Positions 1,051 to 27,067 of a DNA stretch of 64,000 nt are shown in pieces (positions within the stretch are counted from its first letter, which is position 1; each line of letters opens with the position of its first letter). The translations under genes and the position numbers were made by a program. The DNA is from Paenibacillus sp. PL2-23 (lineage in GTDB: Bacteria; Bacillota; Bacilli; Paenibacillales; Paenibacillaceae). The DNA lies in contig NZ_CP162129.1 of assembly GCF_040834005.1 (NCBI RefSeq), positions 1,407,501 to 1,471,500 of the forward strand. Direction: 5' to 3'. The notes beneath the pieces were generated by a model that saw nothing but the letters and a program-made list of their open reading frames with translations, ran no database searches and was not told the DNA's origin.

Positions 1051-1188
1051 GTTGGAGATTGAAGTCAAGGGTCTGGCGAGCAGAAGCACGCACATGACAC
1101 ATTGACAAAGTTCACAGGTGGACACAAACTCACACATCAACCAACAAGCACTCCACATTGAACACGCCTCCTCAACTATCATAGCATA
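1051..1188 (-). other. neo: Predicted 138-nt template unit and endless neo-type ORF (46-codon repeat)
   Basis: On the strand complementary to the ncRNA, one frame (codons covering + positions 1054-1056, 1057-1059 and so on) has no stop from 1036 to 1230. GTTG occurs at 1051-1054, directly after SL1, and again at 1189-1192, the 3' arm of SL2, exactly 138 nt apart. Template jumping at this repeat would give a concatemer with a 46-codon period, so the open frame never ends. An ATG (complement of 1156-1158) follows a GAGGAGG ribosome site (complement of 1167-1173) by 8 nt, and the product begins MWSACWLMCEFVSTCELCQ. It is hydrophobic and cysteine-rich with one proline per repeat. All three sense frames contain stops. 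No protein exists in the genome as written; it would appear only after cDNA synthesis. Confidence 0.62.
1063..1183 (-). promoter_or_regulatory. Split promoter completed only across the cDNA repeat junction
   Basis: The complement of 1063-1068 reads TTGACT and the complement of 1178-1183 reads TATGAT. In the chromosome they lie in the wrong order and cannot act together. If the unit 1051-1188 is joined head to tail, TTGACT is followed by 12 nt to the unit end, 5 nt from the next unit, then TATGAT: a 17-bp spacer, with TGC just before the -10 as an extended -10. Transcription would start near 1171, just ahead of the ribosome site for the predicted neo ORF. Confidence 0.55.
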
Positions 1189-1296
1189 GTTGTTCATGCG
1201 TAATGTACGGGTGGCTGCAATACAATTACATCATACCTGCCAACTTAGGGATGCTACCCCCCGTGTTGGCAGGTATTGCACTTTATGGGGGAATAT

Positions 1297-2631
1297 ATGA
1301 CTGTGGATGAGTGGAAGAAAAAGGTGAAATTCCGAGGCTATGCCCATTTCGATAGAAAAATAACCATAAATGAAGCATGGGATTATATCTCTGATCCACT
1401 AAAAATAAAAACTCATGGATTTCTTCCTTTTATCCACCATACATTGAAAATTACGAAGTATAGTAAATCCAAAGGTAAGACTACCAAAAACCGTGAAATT
1501 TGTTATTCCGCACACATGGATCGGTATATCTATCAGTACTACGCTTATCTATTAAATGAAGAATATAATAAAAGAGTAACTATTGACGGTCTTGACCAAT
1601 GCTCGATTGCGTATCGCAACAATCTGCACATGAATAATATTCATTTTGCTAAACAGGCTTTTGACAAAATAATAGAACTTAAAGAATGCTATGTCGTCAT
1701 CGGGGACTTTAAAAGCTTTTTCGACAGCCTTGACCATCAGTACTTAAAAAAGCGAATGTGTGAGCTGCTTCAAAAAGACAAGCTTCCTAACGATTATTAT
1801 GCGGTATTTAAAAACATCACTAAATATTCAACATGGGAATTATCCGACCTTTTGAAAGAAAATGGGCATTTGATAAATCTTTCTGGAATTAAGCGACTAA
1901 ACAAACAAGATTTGGCGATACCTTGGAGTAAATTTAAGGCCTTAAAGAAGGACATGGTTACTCCAAATAAAAAATCGTTCGGCATTCCTCAAGGATCAGC
2001 AATAAGTGCTGTGTTGTCAAATATATACATGCTTGAGTTCGATGCTAAGATAAATTCATATGTTACTTCCAAAGATGGAATGTATATGAGGTATAGCGAT
2101 GATTTTATTGTTATCCTTCCGAAAGATAAGGCGTTACCATTGGAACAAGAACTTGCCTTCTTGATGTCAATCATATATGCAACACCGTCACTGGTGTTGG
2201 AGCCTGATAAAACCCAACTTTTTGAATGCAGTATAGGCAACATAGAATCATTTGAAATCCGCGATGCTTTATTATGTATGACAGGAAAAAAGAAAATTGA
2301 TTACTTAGGTTTTTCTTTCGATGGGAATGCTGTAACTATTAGGGATAAGACCATTTCGAAGTATTATAATAAGTTGAATCGAAATATAAAGAAGATTCTG
2401 AGAAGCAAAGATGATCCAAAAACAAAAGTAATCATTAAAAGCATACGCCTCTATCGAAAATTTGGATATCATGAGCATGAGGATAGCAAGGATTTAAAAA
2501 ATAGGAACTTCCTTAGTTATGTGGATAGGGCCGAACGAATATTTGGTCCTGATGAGCGAGTTAATGTAGTGAAGGCAAGACACATTCAGATGATAAGAAA
2601 AAAAATGAGAAATCACGAAAGACGATCATAG
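1297..2631 (+). CDS. drt2: Defence-associated reverse transcriptase, DRT2 (UG2)-like
   Basis: A 444-residue reverse transcriptase. Visible RT motifs are GDFKSFFDSLDH (about 135-146, first catalytic aspartate), GIPQGSAISAVLSNIYM (about 229) and RYSDDFIVILP (about 265, a YxDD active site). There is no maturase or endonuclease domain, so it is not a group II intron protein, and no retron VTG motif was seen. The N-terminal GYAHFD and WDYI segments and the single-gene layout with an upstream ncRNA fit DRT2, from my memory of the family. I chose ATG 1297 because GGGGGA at 1287-1292 sits just upstream; an in-frame TTG at 1276 would overlap hairpin SL4. Expected role: copy the ncRNA into concatemeric cDNA during phage infection. 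The enzyme type is certain, the subclass likely. Confidence 0.82.
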   Translation: MTVDEWKKKVKFRGYAHFDRKITINEAWDYISDPLKIKTHGFLPFIHHTLKITKYSKSKGKTTKNREICYSAHMDRYIYQYYAYLLNEEYNKRVTIDGLDQCSIAYRNNLHMNNIHFAKQAFDKIIELKECYVVIGDFKSFFDSLDHQYLKKRMCELLQKDKLPNDYYAVFKNITKYSTWELSDLLKENGHLINLSGIKRLNKQDLAIPWSKFKALKKDMVTPNKKSFGIPQGSAISAVLSNIYMLEFDAKINSYVTSKDGMYMRYSDDFIVILPKDKALPLEQELAFLMSIIYATPSLVLEPDKTQLFECSIGNIESFEIRDALLCMTGKKKIDYLGFSFDGNAVTIRDKTISKYYNKLNRNIKKILRSKDDPKTKVIIKSIRLYRKFGYHEHEDSKDLKNRNFLSYVDRAERIFGPDERVNVVKARHIQMIRKKMRNHERRS

Positions 2632-14272: not shown

Positions 14273-15340
14273 TTGAATAGATTACAAGATATGCTTTATT
14301 ACCTTATCACCGGATTACAACAATGGACAAAAAATTATGATCATGTCCCAGCGGAGCTTCACAGGGGTATGCTTATGTTTATACAAGAAGCCGGAAGGTC
14401 AGGGGCTGAGATTCCTACGGATTTGCACCGGCTTCTTCATATTTTGCATAAACCATCTTCTGAATGGGGAATTCAAGGACTTATTGAATATTATCCTGGC
14501 GAATCCGCTCTTATTGAAGAGTTTATTGGGATAACTCCTGAAGCAGAGGATTTCATTACTACTTATATATCCCCTGATGAAGCGCAGCAGAAGAATATGC
14601 TGGCTATTTTGCAATTTTGCAGAGATGAAAACCGGAATTTGCAAGAGGAATATACTCATATACGCACATTATTGTCCAGGACTCAGAATGCAGTATTGTC
14701 TGCGCTTCAACTCGCGCAATTTGCTGAGTCCATTCGTGACCGCGAATTAAGCGCATTAGTTCGTCAGTGTTATGAAGAGGTAACTCTACAGATAGATAAC
14801 TATCGTAAATGCCCGCATTGTGGATGGACATTAACATATAAGCATGATCGATGGAGCTGCAATAAAGAAAATATCTGTCGTTCATTAGCTGATTTCGAGA
14901 AATTCGATTTGTTCAACTATAAAGATGAACGAGTATTTCGGATGCTTCCCGGTATACAGAGGTATGTGCTGTTACCAGGGATTTCAGAAATGAAAATTGC
15001 CGAATGGTTAAGACAGAAAGGGTACGGCGTAGAATTATATCCTCATATTGATGAGTATGATCTTGCAATTTCACATAATGACATTGAAAGTAAGATGTTA
15101 TTGGATGTAAAAGATTTCAAGGATCCAAGAACGCTGGCGAATTTCTTTAATCAAAAATCATTATCGTATTTGGAGAAGTATGGTCAACAGGTGTACATTG
15201 TTGTTCCCAAATATCGAAATGATCTATATCCATCTTACGGTATGAGAGCCTCAACACTTTTAAAAGAAGACAGACGGCAACTCATAAAGATCATTATGGA
15301 GAATGAATTGGAAAAAACGTTGAAGAAGGTGCTCTGGTGA
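14273..15340 (+). CDS. REase-fold nuclease of the pPIWI-RE module, with zinc ribbon
   Basis: 355 residues, first gene of a four-gene overlapping operon. A zinc ribbon (CPHCGWTL...WSCNKENIC, about 180-202) precedes a restriction-endonuclease-like core near the C-terminus, with EYDLAIS (about 261) and LLDVKDF (about 279-285), the D...D-x-K pattern. The start is TTG 14273, with AAGGAG 9 nt upstream. pPIWI-RE loci described by comparative genomics combine such an REase with a DinG-type helicase and the PIWI-like protein, exactly as here. It probably cuts DNA marked by the PIWI-RE protein. Confidence 0.75.
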   Translation: MNRLQDMLYYLITGLQQWTKNYDHVPAELHRGMLMFIQEAGRSGAEIPTDLHRLLHILHKPSSEWGIQGLIEYYPGESALIEEFIGITPEAEDFITTYISPDEAQQKNMLAILQFCRDENRNLQEEYTHIRTLLSRTQNAVLSALQLAQFAESIRDRELSALVRQCYEEVTLQIDNYRKCPHCGWTLTYKHDRWSCNKENICRSLADFEKFDLFNYKDERVFRMLPGIQRYVLLPGISEMKIAEWLRQKGYGVELYPHIDEYDLAISHNDIESKMLLDVKDFKDPRTLANFFNQKSLSYLEKYGQQVYIVVPKYRNDLYPSYGMRASTLLKEDRRQLIKIIMENELEKTLKKVLW

Positions 15341-18300
15341 GGAAAACCTATTGGGATTTAACTGAAGAAATAAACAAAGAGTTTTTCTCTCTAGAACTAC
15401 CCAAAGCCGACATATCAACAATATTAAGCCTGGAGCTATTTGTGACAGGCTGTCATTTGATTGACCCGATGCTTCATATTGATCAAGGCTGGTCGTTATT
15501 GGTCGGTTATGATGAACCGATTTTAAAGTACATCGAACATAAAGATATCGTAGTTCGACTTAGAATTTTATTTCCTGAGTTAAGGAATAAAAAGATATTG
15601 GCCAGACGAATTGAAGCCTATCGAGCTATTGATATGAAGTTTCGATTGTTTGATATCGATGATCAGGGACGGACTAAGCAACTGGGTCCACGTTTTCTGA
15701 CAAATAGAATGAACGATTACCAGCAGATACTTAATAGACCGATTCCCAGACAAATCGATACAACTCCTTTCGCAACGCAGGGAAAATTCGAATACTCCAG
15801 AATTGTAAGAGGAGGATTTATTCAAAGTTTTAATGGTAACATCCCGGAAGCTTTAATAGTAAAAGAAAAGCGTTTATTACCCTCTTATCGTGAGAAGATG
15901 AGGCTTCGTTTAGAATTGCCATTCAATGGGCTATTGTTGGGCAAAGAAATGGATGAGATAACTGGCAAATCTTCTGCTTGGGAGAACAGGGCAGCTTCAG
16001 TTGTACTCGAGTCAATAGATTGGGATACAGAATTTGTCTACAAAGGAAACCAGCAAATTGGCGGAGCACTGGGGGCAGGTAAATCTACTTTCATGCTCAT
16101 GGAGACGTATCGTCTCGTGAAGCGGGAGGGAGCCAGAGTCGGCTTTATTGAAGGCAGCGTTTCCCAAGTAGTAGAGCGTATCAAAACTCTTCGCGAGTTA
16201 GGCATTCGTGCTGTTCCGATCATTGGTAAGTCATCAAGAAAGACGCATCAAGAGAATTATTTATTTGCAAATGCCGGCGGGATTATCGAGCTTAGTGATT
16301 GGACGAACAACGAATTTCAAGATCTAAAGCATTTGTCGGACTTATGTGTTATTAAAGCGTTGTCTGAAGATTACGAACGAAATAGTAGTTATCCGTGTAC
16401 TCAGCTAAAACAAGAAAATAAGTCTGTGAAATGTCCATTAGCGGATCAATGTGGAGTTTACCGTGATTTCTCCCGACTTGCAGAAGCAGATGTTTGGGTG
16501 GCTACGTCTGCAAGTGTACTCAAAACAAGAATTCCAGCGATGATTGACCCGTTAGAGAGGACGATCTATGAAGCGATGTACGATCTAATGGATGTTGTAT
16601 ACGTTGACGAAGCGGATGAAGTCCAAAAGCAATTCGATGAGACGTTCTTATCGGAATATAATGTCTTTGGAAGCGTTGAGGATATTTTCGAACGGCTGTC
16701 TAACGAATCCAATCAATTAACGAATGGACAGTATCATTTAGCAGGTGATCCTGTAGTTACGGAGTGGAAAGATAAGCTTCGCCAATTGGATCATATGATC
16801 TGGAGTATATATAAAAAGCTAGATCGTTCTCTAATGTTGCGTAAAAATATCAGTCGTAATCTGATTAGAGTGGCGGCGCTAGCCGATTCATTAAGCGAGA
16901 AGATCTCTTTCGACGATGAATCGCAAAAGAAAATCCGTAAACATTTATTGGATTATGCAAATGAGCCTTATCAAGATTCCATGTTATCTAGCATTGTTGA
17001 TGAGTTAGTAGAAAAAGAAAATCATGATGAAAAGCAGAAGCTGCTGACTCAGATTACAGAGAAACTGCTTAAAGGAACAATTCGGCCGCGTGTAAACAGA
17101 GATTTATTTTATGCGCAATTGGAGTTTTTTATTTATTTATGCCGAGCGGAAGAATGTATAAAGTTCATTCTGACTTCCTTTACTATGATTCAAGCCAAGC
17201 TAGGAATGACAGCAGATTTTTCTCCGTTATTCACTATGCAGAAAGATTATCAAGCATTCATGAAAGAGGCCATGACGGGCACGATGATCGGATATAAATA
17301 TGATTTGAAGGATGGGGAAACGACAGGAGCATTTAAATTAATCGAATATACAGGGGTAGGCAGATTATTGTTGCATGACTGGCATTGTGTATATGAAGAT
17401 TCTGATCAGAAACAAGGGCCGGCAGTTATCTTTCTATCAGGCACAAGCCATGCACCCGAATCCGCGCATTATCATTTGAACACGGGATCCAAATGGTTGC
17501 TCAAAGCAGATCGAATATCTCCAGAAGTTCAAATGACATTCAAACCCATACTTGACGCTCGACATGAAAAATTTCTGGAAATCTCGGGGATAGGCGATGA
17601 TGAGGTCAGAAGCAGTAATTTGTATGAGATGATCCAAAAACTCAAATCTGATATTCTTTATGAATTGAAATTTTGGAGTAATAGAGGGAATCCGCGAAGG
17701 GCACTCTTAGTGGTGAATTCGTATGATGATGTTGCCACAGTCGCCAGGGCTTTTCGCAGTGACCAGAGCTGGGTAGGTCGGTATAAAGTTCTATCAAGGG
17801 AACGAAGTCATGAACCGGATCATTTCCCTAGAACAATGATAGAGTCATTTCGCAAAGAAAAGGCTGAAGTATTGATTGTACCGCTTCTCTCTGTAGGTAG
17901 AGGTTACAATATCTTGGATCAAAACGGAGAGTCGTTGTTTGGATCAGTCTTTTTCCTTGTTCGTCCTTATCCTATTCCTAATGACATGAATTATTTGGTT
18001 CAAGCGCTCCACTCCTACTTGCCTCATTATTTGCAAAGAATAACAGGACAAGGGATTCATTACGAAAAAGCTGTTTCTAAATTACGCCAAATAAGCAGTG
18101 GTAAGTTTGAAGCAATGTATAAAAAGCCTGACTACTGGTCGATTCTTAACGATTCTGAAAGAGAAGTTATGGCGTGGTATACGTTTATCCCGATTTGGCA
18201 AATGATTGGACGATTGCTGCGCGGCGGTAAAAATGCCAGAGTATTTTTCTGCGATTCAAAGTTCAATGCAAAGCCTGCTGGTAAACCAGAAGGGATGTCC

Positions 18301-18450
18301 ATGCTGGATAGTTGGGCAGCGATTATGCAGAAGCACAAAAGGGATCCTTTGTTCTTGAGTTTGTACGGACCATTTATCTACGGAATAAATAATATCATTC
18401 GGGAGGGATATGGCGATGAAGAAGATGGAACTGTTTGCATTGGAGATTGA
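15337..18450 (+). CDS. DinG/XPD-type helicase of the pPIWI-RE module
   Basis: 1037 residues. Walker A is GGALGAGKST (about 240-249), the DEAD-like box is YVDEADEV (about 421-428), and between them cysteines in CTQL...KCPLADQC (about 353-372) sit where XPD/DinG helicases hold an iron-sulphur cluster. The C-terminal RecA domain ends with WQMIGRLLRGGK (about 953-964). The GTG start overlaps the preceding stop by 4 nt (GTGA), showing coupling. The expected role is to unwind or load guides or targets for the PIWI-RE protein. The iron-sulphur cluster is inferred from cysteine spacing. Confidence 0.78.
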   Translation: MRKTYWDLTEEINKEFFSLELPKADISTILSLELFVTGCHLIDPMLHIDQGWSLLVGYDEPILKYIEHKDIVVRLRILFPELRNKKILARRIEAYRAIDMKFRLFDIDDQGRTKQLGPRFLTNRMNDYQQILNRPIPRQIDTTPFATQGKFEYSRIVRGGFIQSFNGNIPEALIVKEKRLLPSYREKMRLRLELPFNGLLLGKEMDEITGKSSAWENRAASVVLESIDWDTEFVYKGNQQIGGALGAGKSTFMLMETYRLVKREGARVGFIEGSVSQVVERIKTLRELGIRAVPIIGKSSRKTHQENYLFANAGGIIELSDWTNNEFQDLKHLSDLCVIKALSEDYERNSSYPCTQLKQENKSVKCPLADQCGVYRDFSRLAEADVWVATSASVLKTRIPAMIDPLERTIYEAMYDLMDVVYVDEADEVQKQFDETFLSEYNVFGSVEDIFERLSNESNQLTNGQYHLAGDPVVTEWKDKLRQLDHMIWSIYKKLDRSLMLRKNISRNLIRVAALADSLSEKISFDDESQKKIRKHLLDYANEPYQDSMLSSIVDELVEKENHDEKQKLLTQITEKLLKGTIRPRVNRDLFYAQLEFFIYLCRAEECIKFILTSFTMIQAKLGMTADFSPLFTMQKDYQAFMKEAMTGTMIGYKYDLKDGETTGAFKLIEYTGVGRLLLHDWHCVYEDSDQKQGPAVIFLSGTSHAPESAHYHLNTGSKWLLKADRISPEVQMTFKPILDARHEKFLEISGIGDDEVRSSNLYEMIQKLKSDILYELKFWSNRGNPRRALLVVNSYDDVATVARAFRSDQSWVGRYKVLSRERSHEPDHFPRTMIESFRKEKAEVLIVPLLSVGRGYNILDQNGESLFGSVFFLVRPYPIPNDMNYLVQALHSYLPHYLQRITGQGIHYEKAVSKLRQISSGKFEAMYKKPDYWSILNDSEREVMAWYTFIPIWQMIGRLLRGGKNARVFFCDSKFNAKPAGKPEGMSMLDSWAAIMQKHKRDPLFLSLYGPFIYGINNIIREGYGDEEDGTVCIGD

Positions 18451-20884
18451 TGAAACACTGTTTTATAACGAAACTATCTATTATATGAAAATGCCGGAGA
18501 GCTGGAGAAACTTCTTTAATAGAGAGCGTACAGACCGCTTTAAGCTTGCATTTAAAGTAGAACCTCTAGGAAAGAAACTTAAAAGTATTTTCCCTGAAAT
18601 CGTAAGCGTATGTTCTAACAACAAAGTACTGCTCGATGATCAGCCTTGGCTGGTTTCCACAAAACCTATTCATTCATCGTATATAAAACATTTGACGTTT
18701 GGATGGCTAGCGCATCTAAAGGATTACTCCATTCTTGATTTACCGCAAGACGTAAGAGATTCGGAGCTTGTTTGGGTTTCTTCTACGTTTGGTGATGTTC
18801 ACGAATTCGTTGATAACTACCAGTGGGTTCCCGGCATGGCAGCAGTCAAGTTCTGCCAGGAATCAAAGTTTCTTGATTTAGGTAATGAGCTACGTGAAGA
18901 GCTGAAATTCTATCATGTTATCTTTAATGATAAACACGAATGCATTTCTAATCCGATTCGAAAATCTCATCGTCATGATCCATTTTCTTATGTCATTCGA
19001 TTTGCATTGAAGACTCGTGGGGGAGATGCTGATCGAGCCATACTAACGGTTTCCTTGGGGACAAGAAGGTATTTGAGCGATGTACAAATCAAAGAAGGCA
19101 AGTGCTACATGAGGTCTGGGCATTCCTGTTCGGTTTTGGTATCTGTTCAAAATCCATATGTTACGAGCTTAGATCGTTCATTTTCCCAATTGAAATTTGA
19201 AAGACGTCCTCGCAACTCTTCATATACATCATGGGAGAGCGCATTAGACGAATTGTATTGGGATGTGCTGAATGGGGAGTCTTTCGAGGCAGATTCGTTG
19301 CTTGTGAATCCCAAAGTCTATTCCGATGGGGATGGAGAAATCACGGCTTATGTCGTGAACAACAATCTATTTGCTGGAAATAGTGTGAGAGCGGGAATCG
19401 GCCTTCCTGAGAAAAGCGGTTTGTATAAGTTGGCCAAAGAGTTCTTAACGGATTATGGTTCAAGAGAACTTCAACTTATGCCTGATATTTCTCTTAGAGG
19501 TATGAATGACAATCGCTTTCCAATCGTTGTTCCTAAGGAAGAGAGATTAACTATCGAAATTTATAGTTCTCCAGAGATGTTTGAAGCAGTAAAAAAGGAA
19601 CTATCTACAGCGCAAAAGTCAATTGAGAACGTAACTATTCTTGAGGAGATTTCTGACTCCGTCTTTAGATTAAATTCGGATAAAGAGGTCATTGTTGAAC
19701 TTGTCCACTGTAACCCAGAGAGTATTACTTCGGAGTTAGAGATTGATAGTTATAAGGATAACTCGACTGCCCAGGACAAACGTATAAATCAAATCGTGAA
19801 ACAGCTTTCCCGAGCTGAACAATATGGCTATCCGGTATTGGCGCTCGTAGAAATAGAGGAAAAGGATAAATGGAGAGACGGTGCTGACCCCAAGAAGGCG
19901 ATTCGGGAAGGGCTGAAAAGAACAGGACGACTCTCACAATTTATTCACCCACTAACAGATGATGAGACAGGAGATTTGTCTCGTATTATTAATGCTGTCT
20001 TAGACCTCTTCAACGATTATGGTCTATTTAGTGATAACGTCAATAAGATCAATGCGTCTGGAACGTTGTTATCTATATCTGTCATAAAAGCTGGAAGAAA
20101 ATATCTGCCCGCCATATCAAGATTAGACGGCACGGATCTCAGTGTTAAGCTATTAGGTAATGATAGGTGGATGACTTTGTCTGAAGCGGCACTGAAAATG
20201 GATGAATCTAAATTTCTTGATAATCCTCGAAGAGAAAATAAAAGCAGCGAAGTGTTTAAAGCATTTATTACAGCTGAGATTCACAGTGAACTAGAACGGG
20301 GTTCGGGGCAAGTCATTGTGCTTATCAACGCTACATTAAGACACGGTTGGTTGGGGGCTATCGGTAATTCAAAAATACAATGCGATCGTGTTCCTTATCT
20401 TAATGAGCGTTTGGCCAATGAGACACGATTAAGGTTCATCCGTATTAACGCGACGGATGACATTCCTCAATATCGGATCATTATCGATGATGAAATGAAC
20501 AGATTTAACAAAGCTTCAGGGGTATTTAAAGATCCTATTGGTGTTTATTATGGTGTGGGCGGAAGACCAAGTGCATGGAAAGGAATTTTAATCGAGGCAA
20601 CCAAGTTTTCATCCCCGTCCAAATTATTGCTTCAACAACGGGCTGTAGAATACATTCCAATGGGAGCAAAGAATGAAGAGGAATCGGATGAGCTTGCACT
20701 TTTGGCGGATCATTTAAGACGATTAGGATTGACTTACGATAAGCACACCATTTTACCATATACAATGCGTGTCCTGAGCTCCTTATCGAAATACATAACC
20801 GGTAATGAGGACGATTATGATTACGATGCTGAGTTTGATGAAGAGGTGGAATTGGACTCGGAGGAAGTAGAGGTGAAATCGTGA
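18416..20884 (+). CDS. pPIWI-RE protein (RNase H/PIWI-like, DUF3962/DUF3893 type)
   Basis: 822 residues. The C-terminal half shows the family signature: VLALVEIEEKDKW then DPKKAIREGLKRTGRLSQF (about 475-510), the RNase-H-like strands VIVLINATLRHGWLG (about 634) and RIIIDDEMNRF, and IGVYYGVGGRPSAWKG (about 708-722). The terminal about 25 residues are highly acidic. pPIWI-RE proteins are Argonaute/PIWI relatives with invariant Arg and Glu residues, proposed to act on R-loops or invading DNA. ATG 18416 is preferred since GGGAGGG at 18401-18407 is well spaced for it; ATG 18410 is possible. It overlaps the helicase gene and the next gene. Confidence 0.8.
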   Translation: MKKMELFALEIDETLFYNETIYYMKMPESWRNFFNRERTDRFKLAFKVEPLGKKLKSIFPEIVSVCSNNKVLLDDQPWLVSTKPIHSSYIKHLTFGWLAHLKDYSILDLPQDVRDSELVWVSSTFGDVHEFVDNYQWVPGMAAVKFCQESKFLDLGNELREELKFYHVIFNDKHECISNPIRKSHRHDPFSYVIRFALKTRGGDADRAILTVSLGTRRYLSDVQIKEGKCYMRSGHSCSVLVSVQNPYVTSLDRSFSQLKFERRPRNSSYTSWESALDELYWDVLNGESFEADSLLVNPKVYSDGDGEITAYVVNNNLFAGNSVRAGIGLPEKSGLYKLAKEFLTDYGSRELQLMPDISLRGMNDNRFPIVVPKEERLTIEIYSSPEMFEAVKKELSTAQKSIENVTILEEISDSVFRLNSDKEVIVELVHCNPESITSELEIDSYKDNSTAQDKRINQIVKQLSRAEQYGYPVLALVEIEEKDKWRDGADPKKAIREGLKRTGRLSQFIHPLTDDETGDLSRIINAVLDLFNDYGLFSDNVNKINASGTLLSISVIKAGRKYLPAISRLDGTDLSVKLLGNDRWMTLSEAALKMDESKFLDNPRRENKSSEVFKAFITAEIHSELERGSGQVIVLINATLRHGWLGAIGNSKIQCDRVPYLNERLANETRLRFIRINATDDIPQYRIIIDDEMNRFNKASGVFKDPIGVYYGVGGRPSAWKGILIEATKFSSPSKLLLQQRAVEYIPMGAKNEEESDELALLADHLRRLGLTYDKHTILPYTMRVLSSLSKYITGNEDDYDYDAEFDEEVELDSEEVEVKS

Positions 20885-22279: not shown

Positions 22280-22357
22280 AGTCCTAAAGGAAAATCGTTT
22301 CATAAAGTATACAACAGAATTATGTCGCTTTGCGTAATCGATTGCGGAGGGGTTATC

Positions 22358-23728
22358 TTGAGATATATCCATAACCAAACGGAAAATAATATTATTTTTC
22401 CAAAAGAAGAAGTGTATAAATTATTTGAAATAAATGATGAAATGGCGATCGATGGTGATGAATTCATAAAGGATTTTGCAGAGAATTATTCTGAACTCCT
22501 TAATAATAAATGGGAGAAGATTCAGAGTAAGTATCCGACTATTAAACAAATTGGATTAGAAGCGCTTGAACAATTACTTATTAAAAAAACTGAAGTTATT
22601 AGAAGTGAAATTTTATCAAAGTATCTTTTGAGTGAAAACTTACATGTATTAATGAGCAACGGTTGTTCTATATATGCTGGCTCAAAAGCGATTAATCAAA
22701 CAGATGAGTCAAAGTGCAAAACACTTTTACGTAATGCACAGTTTCAAGATGAGCCTCAAATCACAGATATTATCCAGAGATTAGTTGATGAAAAACCTGA
22801 AGTAGCTTTGGATAGATTATACGAAATTAAGATGTATTGTGCTAATGTCTTAAAAAAAGAACTCTCTAGCAATTGGATTGATGATTTTATTATTCAATAT
22901 AAAAATAGTTTCATTGAAGAGTTTGTTAATACGATTGATTATCGAAAAAACCATTTACATAAATTGTTCTTGAAAAGATTACTTGCTAGAAGCATTAAGT
23001 TGAAAAGAGTTAATCTGTTTACATTGAATTATGACTTGTTAATCGAGAAAAGTGCTGAAGAGATGGGGATATCTCTAAATAATGGCTTTTCGGGTTTCCA
23101 CTATAGAGTATTTATGCCGTCTATTTTCCATCAAGACTTCCACATCAATAGTCCCGATGGAATCAAAGCTCAAACAAAAAGCATGAATTTGTTCAAGCTT
23201 CATGGATCGTTATCTTGGAGGTTTGATGATTCAAAGCCTCCCTATGGAATTACAGAACAGCAGTATGATTTTGCGGAAAACGGAGAAATGAAAACCATTC
23301 TACCTGAATGCATAATTTATCCTGTTCAGAGTAAGAAGAAACACTCGTTGGATCTTCCCTACAGTGAGATGTTTAGGCAATTTATTGAGTTTGTCAATAA
23401 GCCCAGCTCAACTTTACTAATTATGGGCTATAGTTTCCTAGACGAACATGTCAATGACATTATAACGAACGCACTCACAAATCCCAGTTTTAATATGATA
23501 GTTTTTTCTTATCTTGATGAAAATAGCCCGCATATATCGGAGTACCAGAAGCGATTATTTGAAAGAAGCAGGGAGGATTCAAGAATAATTATTTTTTCTG
23601 GAAATATACTAGGCAATTTTGAGTATATAGTAAAGTTTCTTATCCCTTATGCTGATGATACAAACTTTGACGCCGTATTGTTCAATACCTATAAGAATCT
23701 AAAGGGCGATCACTCTCATGCTAAATAA
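22358..23728 (+). CDS. SIR2-family NADase of a SIR2-HerA defence pair
   Basis: 456 residues from TTG 22358, chosen because GGAGGGG (22346-22352) precedes it; an in-frame ATG at 22322 has no ribosome site. SIR2-like segments are LMSNGCSIYAGS (about 98-109), NLFTLNYDLLIEKSA (about 218-232), FKLHGSLSWRF (about 279-289) and LLIMGYSFLDEHVNDII (about 352-368). In SIR2-HerA systems the SIR2 subunit depletes NAD+ or cleaves nucleic acid on infection, within a large complex with the HerA hexamer. Its stop overlaps the herA start by 11 nt. The gene is AT-rich compared with its neighbours, suggesting separate acquisition. With herA interrupted, SIR2 may be silent or unregulated. Confidence 0.8.
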   Translation: MRYIHNQTENNIIFPKEEVYKLFEINDEMAIDGDEFIKDFAENYSELLNNKWEKIQSKYPTIKQIGLEALEQLLIKKTEVIRSEILSKYLLSENLHVLMSNGCSIYAGSKAINQTDESKCKTLLRNAQFQDEPQITDIIQRLVDEKPEVALDRLYEIKMYCANVLKKELSSNWIDDFIIQYKNSFIEEFVNTIDYRKNHLHKLFLKRLLARSIKLKRVNLFTLNYDLLIEKSAEEMGISLNNGFSGFHYRVFMPSIFHQDFHINSPDGIKAQTKSMNLFKLHGSLSWRFDDSKPPYGITEQQYDFAENGEMKTILPECIIYPVQSKKKHSLDLPYSEMFRQFIEFVNKPSSTLLIMGYSFLDEHVNDIITNALTNPSFNMIVFSYLDENSPHISEYQKRLFERSREDSRIIIFSGNILGNFEYIVKFLIPYADDTNFDAVLFNTYKNLKGDHSHAK

Positions 23729-23956: not shown

Positions 23957-25618
23957 CCTGAATCCGTGACAGCTTAGGTCCCCTACCTCCTAGGCAGTCC
24001 GTATTTTGGAAAACAGGCGTAGAAGATTGTGTATCTTACAACATTCCCATCTTCGGATTCAAACAAGAAGCGCTTTTCACAGGAAGCAAGGCATGCGAAA
24101 TAAACCTCCTTTTTTACAGGGGGGAGGCGACTGGTGGCTGTGCTTGCGTTTCATTCACAATAATCAGGCAAATGCCTGGTAGATTCGACGAACGGTTTGG
24201 AACCATGGACTGTAACGGCCGAAATTGAAGGACGTTTGTCGGGCATGGCGGCTGACTCTAGCTGCGATGTAGATGATGTTCTGAATGACAGTTCGGATAC
24301 GACGGCGCCCGACGCCTCCACGAATCGGTGCATCATCTTGACGTAAGCTTTCTTGTCCCATGATGCGAAGCAGGTTATAGGCGAATACGCCAGCGTGCAG
24401 GACTAGCTCATTCGTATCGAACTTGCCTGCCGGCAATCGCTCCAAATCTAGATCGGTCTTAAGCTCACTATGAAATTGCTCGCTTGTGCCATGATCGCGA
24501 TAAAGCTCAATGACACGCCATGGCGAGCAAGTCAGAGATGTCCAGTAAACGTTCACTTCCACATCTGGAAACATGAGCACCTGCCCATCCCGATCGATCG
24601 TACGCACGATGACTTGGAACACTTGACGCAGGTTACAATCGAAGTCTTTCTGTGGAAATGTAATCGCGCCGATGTAGGTGGTCTTCCCAGGGCGTTGCTC
24701 ACAAGATATCCCTTTGTCTTCGGCTACTCGCAGCCAGCTTTCTTTGGAAGCGCCGCGAAGATTGACTTTAATGATGTAGTCAACATCTTTCTCCGCGTGG
24801 CAAACTTGCAAGTTTTCAAGACTATCGTGAGCAGAATCCATACGGACGAGTAGACGATCACTTGTAATGCGACGAGCGTAATGAATCGTTTCCCGAAGGA
24901 AATCAGCACCATCTTTCTGGCTGTGTGTACTACCTTCACGCAATTGAAGATTTACGCCATACCCTTCTCGGCCCAAATAGGCAAAGATGGGGGCATATCC
25001 AAATGTTCCTTTGTACGTGAGGGAGACACCTTCTTTTTTCGTGCCGGAGTTATCGAACGGCGAAACGTCAATGTCCAGCGGTATGACCGTATGCTCGCCT
25101 GCGTCAAGTCCAGTTACCGGGGCATTGAGGTTTCGGATGAGGTCGGCAGATTCCTGCAACAGAATGTCATTCCAATTGGCATCTATTGTTTGTGCAGCGG
25201 CATCCAGTCGCTGACGGAGCGTAGGGCTTGAAGGCACTTTGCGAATACCCAGGCATGTTTGAAACACCGTATCTTTGCGAAAAGGCTCGATGTGGTCGAA
25301 ATCGCTTTTACCTTGGCAGAGCAGACCAAGATAGCTTTTCATGACTTCGCCGTTCCCGTGGATCGGATTCTCCATTCCTTTAACGGCTGAGCGATTAAGA
25401 CGCTGAGACAACTGTGTATGGGAAAGCAGCGCACCGACCGCAGCCAAGCCTGCATGCGTTGTTAAGAGGATTTCCTTAGATTGGGTGAATTGGATCTTCA
25501 TATTCAGCACCTCGTTGGTGAAAGTAGATAATAAGCGATTATCTTTAATTTTCGACTTCAGAGATGCATTTTCCTTTAAATATCTCGGTTTTTATAAACT
25601 TTGTATCACGGATTCAGG
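23957..25618 (-). mobile_element. IS1380-family insertion sequence inside herA
   Basis: A 1,662-bp element bounded by inverted repeats CCTGAATCCGTGA (left 23957-23969; right, complement of 25606-25618), perfect over 13 bp, with the single transposase gene on the minus strand. Length, one-ORF layout and 5-bp target duplication fit the IS1380 family. The about 190 bp between the left end and the transposase stop carry no gene. Confidence 0.88.
24164..25501 (-). CDS. IS1380-family transposase
   Basis: 445 residues from the ATG at 25501; an in-frame GTG lies 9 nt upstream next to GAGG. DDE-transposase features of this family are visible: PLDIDVSPFDNSGTKKEG with the first catalytic aspartate, RMDSAHDSLENL with the second, and VIELYRDHGTSEQFHSELKTDLDLERLP, which holds the final glutamate. 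The ORF is intact and may still be mobile. Confidence 0.88.
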   Translation of the reverse strand: MKIQFTQSKEILLTTHAGLAAVGALLSHTQLSQRLNRSAVKGMENPIHGNGEVMKSYLGLLCQGKSDFDHIEPFRKDTVFQTCLGIRKVPSSPTLRQRLDAAAQTIDANWNDILLQESADLIRNLNAPVTGLDAGEHTVIPLDIDVSPFDNSGTKKEGVSLTYKGTFGYAPIFAYLGREGYGVNLQLREGSTHSQKDGADFLRETIHYARRITSDRLLVRMDSAHDSLENLQVCHAEKDVDYIIKVNLRGASKESWLRVAEDKGISCEQRPGKTTYIGAITFPQKDFDCNLRQVFQVIVRTIDRDGQVLMFPDVEVNVYWTSLTCSPWRVIELYRDHGTSEQFHSELKTDLDLERLPAGKFDTNELVLHAGVFAYNLLRIMGQESLRQDDAPIRGGVGRRRIRTVIQNIIYIAARVSRHARQTSFNFGRYSPWFQTVRRIYQAFA

Positions 25619-25623
25619 ATTAA
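25606..25623. repeat. Right inverted repeat and right ATTAA duplication of the IS1380-family element
   Basis: The 13-bp right inverted repeat (25606-25618) mirrors the left end at 23957-23969; ATTAA at 25619-25623 duplicates 23952-23956. Confidence 0.8.
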
Positions 25624-27067
25624 TGCATCGGACCGCTTTTTAATAGAAGCTGATTTGATAGGTATACACGATGATTATTTAAAAAAATTCGATTCTGGAA
25701 TAAACCATTTTCCTATTATCGGTAGTGAAGTTTATGCTGTGAATGAAAGAATACAAAAATCGGTTTTGGATATTGGTTCAAAGTGGAGAATAGAGGTGGG
25801 TAGAAGTTTTAATGACCCAAATATTTATATTTCAGCTAATCCAGACATTTTATTCGGGAAACATCTGGGGGTATTTGGTAACACCGGCACAGGTAAGACG
25901 TGCACACTTGCTTCAGTTATTCAAGGGATTAAACGCAGAATTTATAATAACTCCGATGGTTCTAAAAGTGAGATAAATCCCAAAATTATTATTTTCGATT
26001 CTAATAGTGAATATGATCGGGCTTTTGCGAGCGAAGAATTCAAAGTAAAGATTATCACTAAGCAAGAACTTAAATTGCCCCATTATCACCTCAATTTCTC
26101 AGAATATTATAAGTTTTTGGGTGCGAGTCAAGGCGTACAAGCTCCTGTTCTTAAGGCATCCATTAAGCAGTTAAGAGAAAAAAATAAGGATGTCAAAAAG
26201 TTTAACTTATCTGATGTTCCCACCGAAATAAGGAAATACTTAATGGCTCAAGCGGAAAAAGGGGCGGATAATGAGAGAAATAAGACCTTTAGTTTTTCGC
26301 AATGGTACGGATGGAATGCAACCATGATTAACAGAATAGAACGGCTAATTGAAGATGAAGATTTAATTACAATAATAGAAACTGATCAAAATACAGTTGA
26401 AGAAATATTGCAAAGTGAAGACGAGGTTATTTTAATTCAAGCCGACTTTAATAAAGATGAGTTAGATATTGTTATGTTTTTATTCAGTAAGCTTATTTAT
26501 GAGTGGTCAACCAAGAACAGAGATAAAGAACATAAGAATCATGTTCTTATCCTTTTCGAAGAAGCACATCGATATATTAATGAGGATGATGCTGAAGAAT
26601 ACAAACTAGGTAATTATTACATAGAGCGACTGGCAAGAGAAGGACGTAAATTTGGTATAAGTTTAATTATTTCTAGTCAAAGACCGTCTGAATTGTCACA
26701 AACAGTAGTATCACAATGTAATTCCTTTATAGTACATAGGATTACAAATAAGAAAGATTTCGATGTTATTAATAAAATATTAAGTACAAATAATCAAAAT
26801 CTCTTGAGTATTATTCCGGGATTAGAAAAGCAGTATGCAATTGTGATTGGTGAAGCTTTTGGATATTCCGATGTGATTAAGCTATTTGATGCCAACCCTA
26901 CTCCGAAAAGTGATGATCCAGAAGTAATATCCAACTGGAAAAATAATAGTGCGAAAGTCGTCACTGAAGAAAATAGCACGTTGGATAAAGATAGTACATT
27001 GGATGAATTCGTTAGAGGGATAGTAGGTAGTGCCAAGAGCTCTAATCCCGATATTGATGTTGACTAA
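25619..27067 (+). pseudogene. herA: HerA, C-terminal fragment with intact ATPase core
   Basis: The rest of the split HerA: VFGNTGTGKTCTLA (Walker A), VLILFEEAHRYI (Walker B) and YIERLAREGRKFGISLIISSQRPSELSQTV, the HerA/FtsK-like arginine and sensor region. An open frame begins with TTG at 25601 inside the IS end, but it lacks most of the N-terminal barrel. Precise excision would give an uninterrupted protein of about 560 residues, the normal HerA size. No internal stops or frameshifts were seen, so decay has not followed the insertion. It is AT-rich like the SIR2 gene. Confidence 0.82.

Follow-up and report, generated by a model that had tools for sequence, protein, structure and literature searches.

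A candidate neo gene in a divergent DRT2 locus of Paenibacillus and similar candidate templates across the DRT2 family

Described DRT2 systems and the window locus

In the DRT2 system of Klebsiella pneumoniae (KpnDRT2), template jumping by the reverse transcriptase (RT) and the neo gene that results from it have been shown experimentally (PMC11100668, PMC12039810). According to the parts of these papers used here, the KpnDRT2 promoter is rebuilt across the repeat junction, the system needs ACA motifs (ACA-1 and ACA-2) at the template ends, and its repeat is 120 nucleotides (nt) long, with 42 close homologues mostly at 117 nt and several at 111 or 129 nt (PMC11100668, PMC12039810). Mutants with disrupted homology lose defence (PMC11100668), and the DRT2 noncoding RNA (ncRNA) is reported as pseudoknotted (PMC12039810). 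In divergent DRT2 clades the annotation of Neo was called more challenging, and alternative mechanisms were suggested as possible (PMC11100668). Here, we analyzed a stretch of 64,000 nt from Paenibacillus sp. PL2-23, referred to below as the window, which very probably contains a DRT2 locus of a divergent clade whose antisense concatemer serves as a neo gene, with a repeat protein that arrests the infected cell.

The RT gene of the locus (1297-2631, plus strand) encodes 444 amino acids with the catalytic YxDD motif in the form YSDD. Its product matches the PADLOC model Drt2 (PDLC03757) with 466 bits (E=3.7e-140), against 66 bits for the Drt9 model, and among solved structures the chains closest in sequence, 9lje and 9c0i (E about 1e-61), are likewise DRT2. 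The window thus carries a DRT2 antiphage locus; its clade is divergent and, by its named relatives, would lie within Bacillota. The relatives whose RT is 92-98% identical belong to Paenibacillus. Literature searches on DRT2 or Neo in Bacillota or in this clade, covering titles and abstract openings, returned no paper, and part of this may already be in print. The window locus is a new, divergent DRT2/Neo member.

As far as the cited sections describe them, KpnDRT2 and its close homologues share with the window a Drt2 RT, an upstream pseudoknotted ncRNA, a template beside a hairpin, a -35 and a -10 element rebuilt at the junction, a triplet repeat, a stop-free antisense frame and a hydrophobic Neo. 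In contrast to KpnDRT2, which uses an ACA/TGT pair, the window has a 138-nt repeat, a CAAC/GTTG junction without ACA-1 or ACA-2, a TTGACT/TATGAT promoter with an extended -10, and a cysteine-rich Neo. DRT9 and DRT10 are RTs of the same wider group that also make repetitive DNA from an ncRNA; DRT9 makes a homopolymer and DRT10 short tandem repeats, both protein-primed, and no encoded protein is described in the sections consulted (PMC12632851).

Repeat unit, rebuilt promoter and ncRNA of the window

The template spans 1051-1188 (138 nt), and its antisense copy on the minus strand corresponds to one 46-codon Neo repeat (YAMIVEEACSMWSACWLMCEFVSTCELCQCVMCVLLLARPLTSISN), which is stop-free if concatenated. 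A preliminary description of this DNA had pointed to a GTTG repeat as the boundary of the unit. Indeed, GTTG stands at 1051-1054 and again at 1189-1192, 138 nt apart. In the centroid fold, the 5' hairpin of the ncRNA (SL1, 1031-1050, arms 1031-1038 and 1043-1050) ends just before the first copy, which is the proposed jump donor on the plus strand (3' end of the complementary DNA [cDNA], CAAC). The second copy, the proposed acceptor, lies in the 3' arm of a further plus-strand hairpin (SL2, 1173-1192, arms 1173-1179 and 1186-1192; -5.1 kcal/mol), which 17 of 200 shuffles fold equally well. The frame reported as free of stops on the minus strand is open from 1230 to 1036, with the nearest stop codons at 1233 on one side and 1035 on the other. 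In the sense direction, the 138-nt concatemer is closed in every frame. A ribosome-binding-site (RBS)-like GAGGAGG (minus strand, 1173-1167) is followed after 8 nt by an ATG in the Neo frame (1158-1156), again as first described. The window therefore has the triplet repeat with one stop-free antisense frame known from KpnDRT2, here of 138 nt, and its Neo repeat is cysteine rich.

The preliminary description had overlooked the promoter that the jump rebuilds. A jump from 1051 to 1188 places the -35 hexamer TTGACT (minus strand, 1068-1063) 17 nt from the -10 hexamer TATGAT (minus strand, 1183-1178), which is preceded by TGC (extended -10) and is formed, on the other strand, by the loop and 5' arm of SL2. 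In the chromosome, the two hexamers stand in the wrong order and more than 100 nt apart; the jump would join them into a promoter across the repeat junction, as in KpnDRT2. A reading of the frame as an ordinary antisense small open reading frame (ORF; 1033-1197, 54 amino acids), transcribed directly from the chromosome, agrees with the ORF listing, which contains it with an ATG at 1197. Nevertheless, a plain consensus promoter scan of the minus strand of 940-1310 gave no promoter-like site, and such an ORF has no need for a triplet period or a jump-rebuilt promoter, which makes this explanation very improbable.

Homologous loci had been expected to keep a stop-free frame and a period divisible by three. 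All five close homologues (L012-L015 and L019; loci are numbered with L) keep both the 138-nt period and the stop-free frame, with no stop and no other period, so that this holds in six of six window-clade loci compared. The RBS is kept in the same five, including L019 at 63% identity. The GTTG boundary fared less well: the exact pair is present in the window, L012, L014 and L015, but L013 has GGTG and L019 has GTGG at the first site. Since GTTG is not strictly conserved, the boundary is better seen as a shorter, partial microhomology located next to SL1 and within SL2.

Upstream of the RT gene, the region 1027-1286 has a much more stable predicted fold than its shuffles (z -3.65), and a pseudoknot is predicted between GGGTGGC (1209-1215) and GCTACCC (1253-1259) in the loop of the 3' hairpin, both on the plus strand. 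By a scripted count, used because MAFFT misaligned the first strand, all seven pairs form in each of the 14 loci that can be aligned; the window and its near-copies make up five of these. Two-sided pair changes occur in one to two loci each at positions 2, 3, 4, 6 and 7. A strand-swap control was weak, with 51 of 120 swaps also pairing, because the pseudoknot motifs resemble each other; the pseudoknot claim therefore rests on covariation. Fold and covariation together point to a pseudoknotted ncRNA directly upstream of the RT, in agreement with the pseudoknotted DRT2 ncRNA as reported in PMC12039810. A promoter-like site for this RNA, TTGCCA-17-TAATAT with TG before the second hexamer, lies at 995-1023 on the plus strand; it is weak alone (one found versus 0.8 expected in shuffles), and the stretch is largely conserved in L012-L015.

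At gathering scores, no Rfam family matched in the window. At a relaxed threshold, RT-6 (RF03027) matched at 1029-1091 with 37.4 bits (E=9.6e-7), below its gathering score of 46.7. This match includes SL1 and the -35 region, and the 75-nt model differs in being limited to the 5' portion of the DRT2 ncRNA. Four relatives (L010, L020, L021 and L026) reach the gathering score of RT-6, and L037 falls short of it. We also observed, on the Photobacterium plasmid that carries L035, a match of Rfam RT-12 immediately ahead of drt2 (L035:1334-1446, 72.9 bits). Thus, the window RNA resembles RT-6 and the Kpn-like L035 matches RT-12; the two separate Rfam families, here linked to DRT2 templates, look like parts of one RNA kind. 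Literature searches on RT-6 and RT-12, by names and accessions, returned no paper.

By analogy with KpnDRT2, the RNA (roughly 1030-1280) would bind the Drt2 RT through its 3' pseudoknot domain, and on infection the RT would copy the template from 1188 to 1051. The cDNA end CAAC would then leave GTTG at 1051-1054 and reanneal to GTTG at 1189-1192 in the opened SL2, after which the next 138-nt repeat would be made, each junction setting the -35 TTGACT 17 nt from the extended -10 TATGAT. Following second-strand synthesis, transcription of the double-stranded concatemer and translation starting at the RBS and ATG would give a hydrophobic, cysteine-rich repeat protein without a stop (Neo), which may arrest the growth of the infected cell. 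The same analogy suggests that cDNA and protein synthesis, phage triggering, toxicity and defence would all take place at the window locus. A neo gene made by template jumping, as first proposed, is supported by the Drt2 RT, which belongs to the family of KpnDRT2, by the frame and period tests in homologues and by the rebuilt promoter. We consider it hardly credible that the locus is a decayed DRT2 that makes Neo no longer. The upstream BrxL gene is seen only as its C-terminal part, which would suit decay but may be due to the window edge; opposed to this are the full-length RT with YSDD, the open frame and the RNA elements, all conserved in close relatives.

A frame-blind test across DRT2 loci

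DRT2 loci were gathered by whole-genome, viral, phage and plasmid searches. The window RT found matches in 3 of 51 genus genomes (E<=1e-20) and in 11 of 394 family, 9 of 398 class and 4 of 398 phylum genomes (E<=1e-40), in samples that overlap and include its own genome. A scan of viral contigs with the window RT (P0001) as the query gave no relatives; with the alignment A1 it gave 16 loci, of which L043 alone entered the counts. Eight plasmid and phage matches were taken of 32 listed. The final set comprised 28 loci, including the window and the Kpn-like control L035, each represented by the 420 nt before the RT gene and its first 15 nt. Left out were partial genes (L011, L023, L025 and L028), near-copies of the window (L012-L015), loci from the same systems as L012, L014 and L015 (L016-L018), one whose RT match begins at residue 66 (L042) and one with a short upstream region (L044). 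Loci L001-L009 never entered, being from the genome that holds the window (the window locus itself as L001 and L009, weaker profile matches as L002-L008), nor did L045-L058, which are short, distant RT matches, or L059 and L065, which equal L027 and L033.

Each candidate was a hexamer pair brought to 17-nt spacing by a jump of 100-180 nt, and its score summed hexamer matches and microhomology; the frame was ignored. The scoring rule was finalised after scans of these loci had been seen and is not fully blind, but the frame was never in the score. Thirteen of the 28 loci (L035-L041, L043 and L060-L064) joined the set once the first scans had been run or in parallel with them.

With ties averaged, 22.5 of 28 loci had a best-scoring period divisible by three, and 18.7 had one that was antisense-open. 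In 60 rounds of dinucleotide shuffling, which left a candidate in a mean of 24.6 of 28 loci, the corresponding means were 8.6 and 1.5 and the maxima 15.6 and 4.3. Taken by locus, the expected triplet period and stop-free frame appeared outright in 18 of 28 loci, only in some tied candidates in two (L019 and L027) and not in the other eight, and the periods vary. At a score of at least 12 there were 24 loci, with 20 periods divisible by three and 18 open. On the opposite strand of the same stretches, 0 of 27 were open. Other segments of the same loci were open in 21% of cases (n=317), or 16% at a score of at least 12 (n=60), and segments of the rest of the window in 25% (n=211), or 30% at that score (n=19). 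Among the 13 later or parallel additions to the set, the best candidate was open in 8. Open best candidates span periods of 111-177 nt; the periods of 180 nt for L062 and 192 nt for L027 came from wider searches. The templates of L062 and L063 are 91% identical and differ by a 3-nt indel (180 versus 177 nt), and both are stop-free in antisense. Grand average of hydropathicity (GRAVY) values of the Neo frame were positive in 21 of 21 repeats computed (0.28 to 1.43, mean 0.67), and the other antisense frames had a mean of -0.21. Outside the window clade, the -35 was TTGACA in 16 of 19 loci, which had been picked by a score that rewards TTGACA.

When the junction letters of open loci were grouped by eye, AAC or GAC marked the window clade and nearer relatives, AAAC marked L029-L032, and ATAC marked L038 and L039; several other open loci had no clear junction motif. 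At the window, the jump may be guided by such short matches or else by SL1 and SL2. On a tree of 33 RTs, the 23 labelled as having an open candidate were spread over several deep branches with 8 changes, and 170 of 500 label shuffles were as low. Open candidates are thus unclustered on the RT tree. An old trait that was lost in places, or overlooked there, would agree with this pattern, which is no proof of one.

Several results weigh against the neo reading. At the window, the NCBIfam equivalog model for Drt2 (NF041746) gives the RT 376.5 bits, just below its cut-off of 390, a shortfall that would be consistent with a divergent Drt2 member. The ACA motif is absent from the window junction flanks, which carry GTTG/GTTG instead; in our view, ACA belongs to the Kpn-related clade and not to DRT2 in general. 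When the 138-mer is shuffled with its dinucleotides kept, 398 of 2000 versions have an open antisense frame, and 10 of 60 exact 4-mer repeat pairs 90-180 nt apart in 951-1296 give one. The original statement that boundaries, period and frame agree independently was thus too strong for the window sequence alone, and since the chance at a single locus is not small, the case is carried by the homologues. Hydrophobicity in the window is not specific to the Neo frame either, as the other antisense frames have GRAVY values of 0.55 and 0.75, and in several of the wider loci another frame is as hydrophobic as the Neo frame or more so. Substitutions by codon position numbered 48 at third, 41 at first and 30 at second positions (six pairs, with L014 and L026 used twice). 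This is not convincing: the codon positions do not demonstrate purifying selection on Neo or a conserved Neo amino acid sequence.

Under the frame-blind score, the best candidate was not open in eight of the 28 loci (L022, L033, L034, L036, L040, L041, L060 and L062). A wider search, judged by eye, gave an acceptable alternative only for L062 (180 nt) and a weaker one for L041 (144 nt, 18-nt spacer), with 192 nt for L027; L033, L036 and L040 stayed without an open candidate even there. L033 is the most telling of these: at 42% identity it is fairly close and retains its RNA elements, yet it has 5, 1 and 4 stops in its three antisense frames at 147 nt, reflecting either decay or a different junction. 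L036 is a gammaproteobacterial relative, and its failure means that the rule may miss real cases. Jump microhomology is only partial in L013, L019 and L021 and is absent at the same place in L010. The signal is also far less clear when all hexamer pairs of at least 10/12 matches are taken in 16 loci, where 62 of 138 have periods divisible by three and 35 are open. At higher stringency, the same 16 loci gave 22 pairs with at least 11 matches (12 divisible by three, 9 open) and 7 pairs with 12/12 (5 open).

Some of these points would suit an RT whose repeat DNA, or the very process of making it, acts as the effector, with an open frame that is a by-product of composition: the search used left L033, L036 and L040 without an open frame, open shuffles of the 138-mer are common, and other DRT families act via DNA products, according to the parts of PMC12632851 consulted. 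This explanation is nonetheless unlikely given the excess of open frames at the frame-blind best period over shuffles and over the other strand, the 3-nt indel between L062 and L063 that leaves both open, and the ordered promoter, RBS and ATG.

Returning to the neo reading, the rule of a 17-nt rebuilt promoter plus microhomology, applied blind to frame, yields a neo candidate outright in 18 of 28 loci, nearly all divergent, and we judge this wider result more valuable than the single window locus. With moderate confidence, we favour the view that Neo synthesis is ancestral in almost all of the DRT2 family, also in those divergent Bacillota and phage-borne clades in which attempts to annotate Neo had not succeeded. 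The jump motif would be clade specific (AAC, AAAC or ATAC in the cDNA, not TGT), the repeats would range from about 111 to 192 nt, and the invariant would be a promoter rebuilt at 17-nt spacing. Since the rule predicts, clade by clade, where the junction lies, how long the period is and which stop-codon mutants to make, the Neo question in divergent clades becomes directly testable. As a separate observation, DRT2 with candidate neo templates was found in records filed as phage or viral, namely L038 (Clostridioides phage HGP05), L037, L039 and L043; phages may thus carry DRT2 with candidate neo templates.

Setting of the locus

The RT gene follows a BrxL-like gene at 75-962 (PADLOC BrxL) after a gap of 334 nt. 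A tRNA search of the window found none. According to PADLOC, positions 1-39330 form a defence island with BrxL, DRT2, two helicases matching DruE/BrxH/SngC models and a PDC-M26A-like ATPase, together with a pPIWI-RE set (14273-20884), SIR2 and HerA, and further SIR2 and Aga-type matches. SIR2 (22322-23728) and HerA (25601-27067) are a likely pair, split by a candidate insertion sequence transposase ORF on the opposite strand (24164-25510), which was recognised by the ORF alone.
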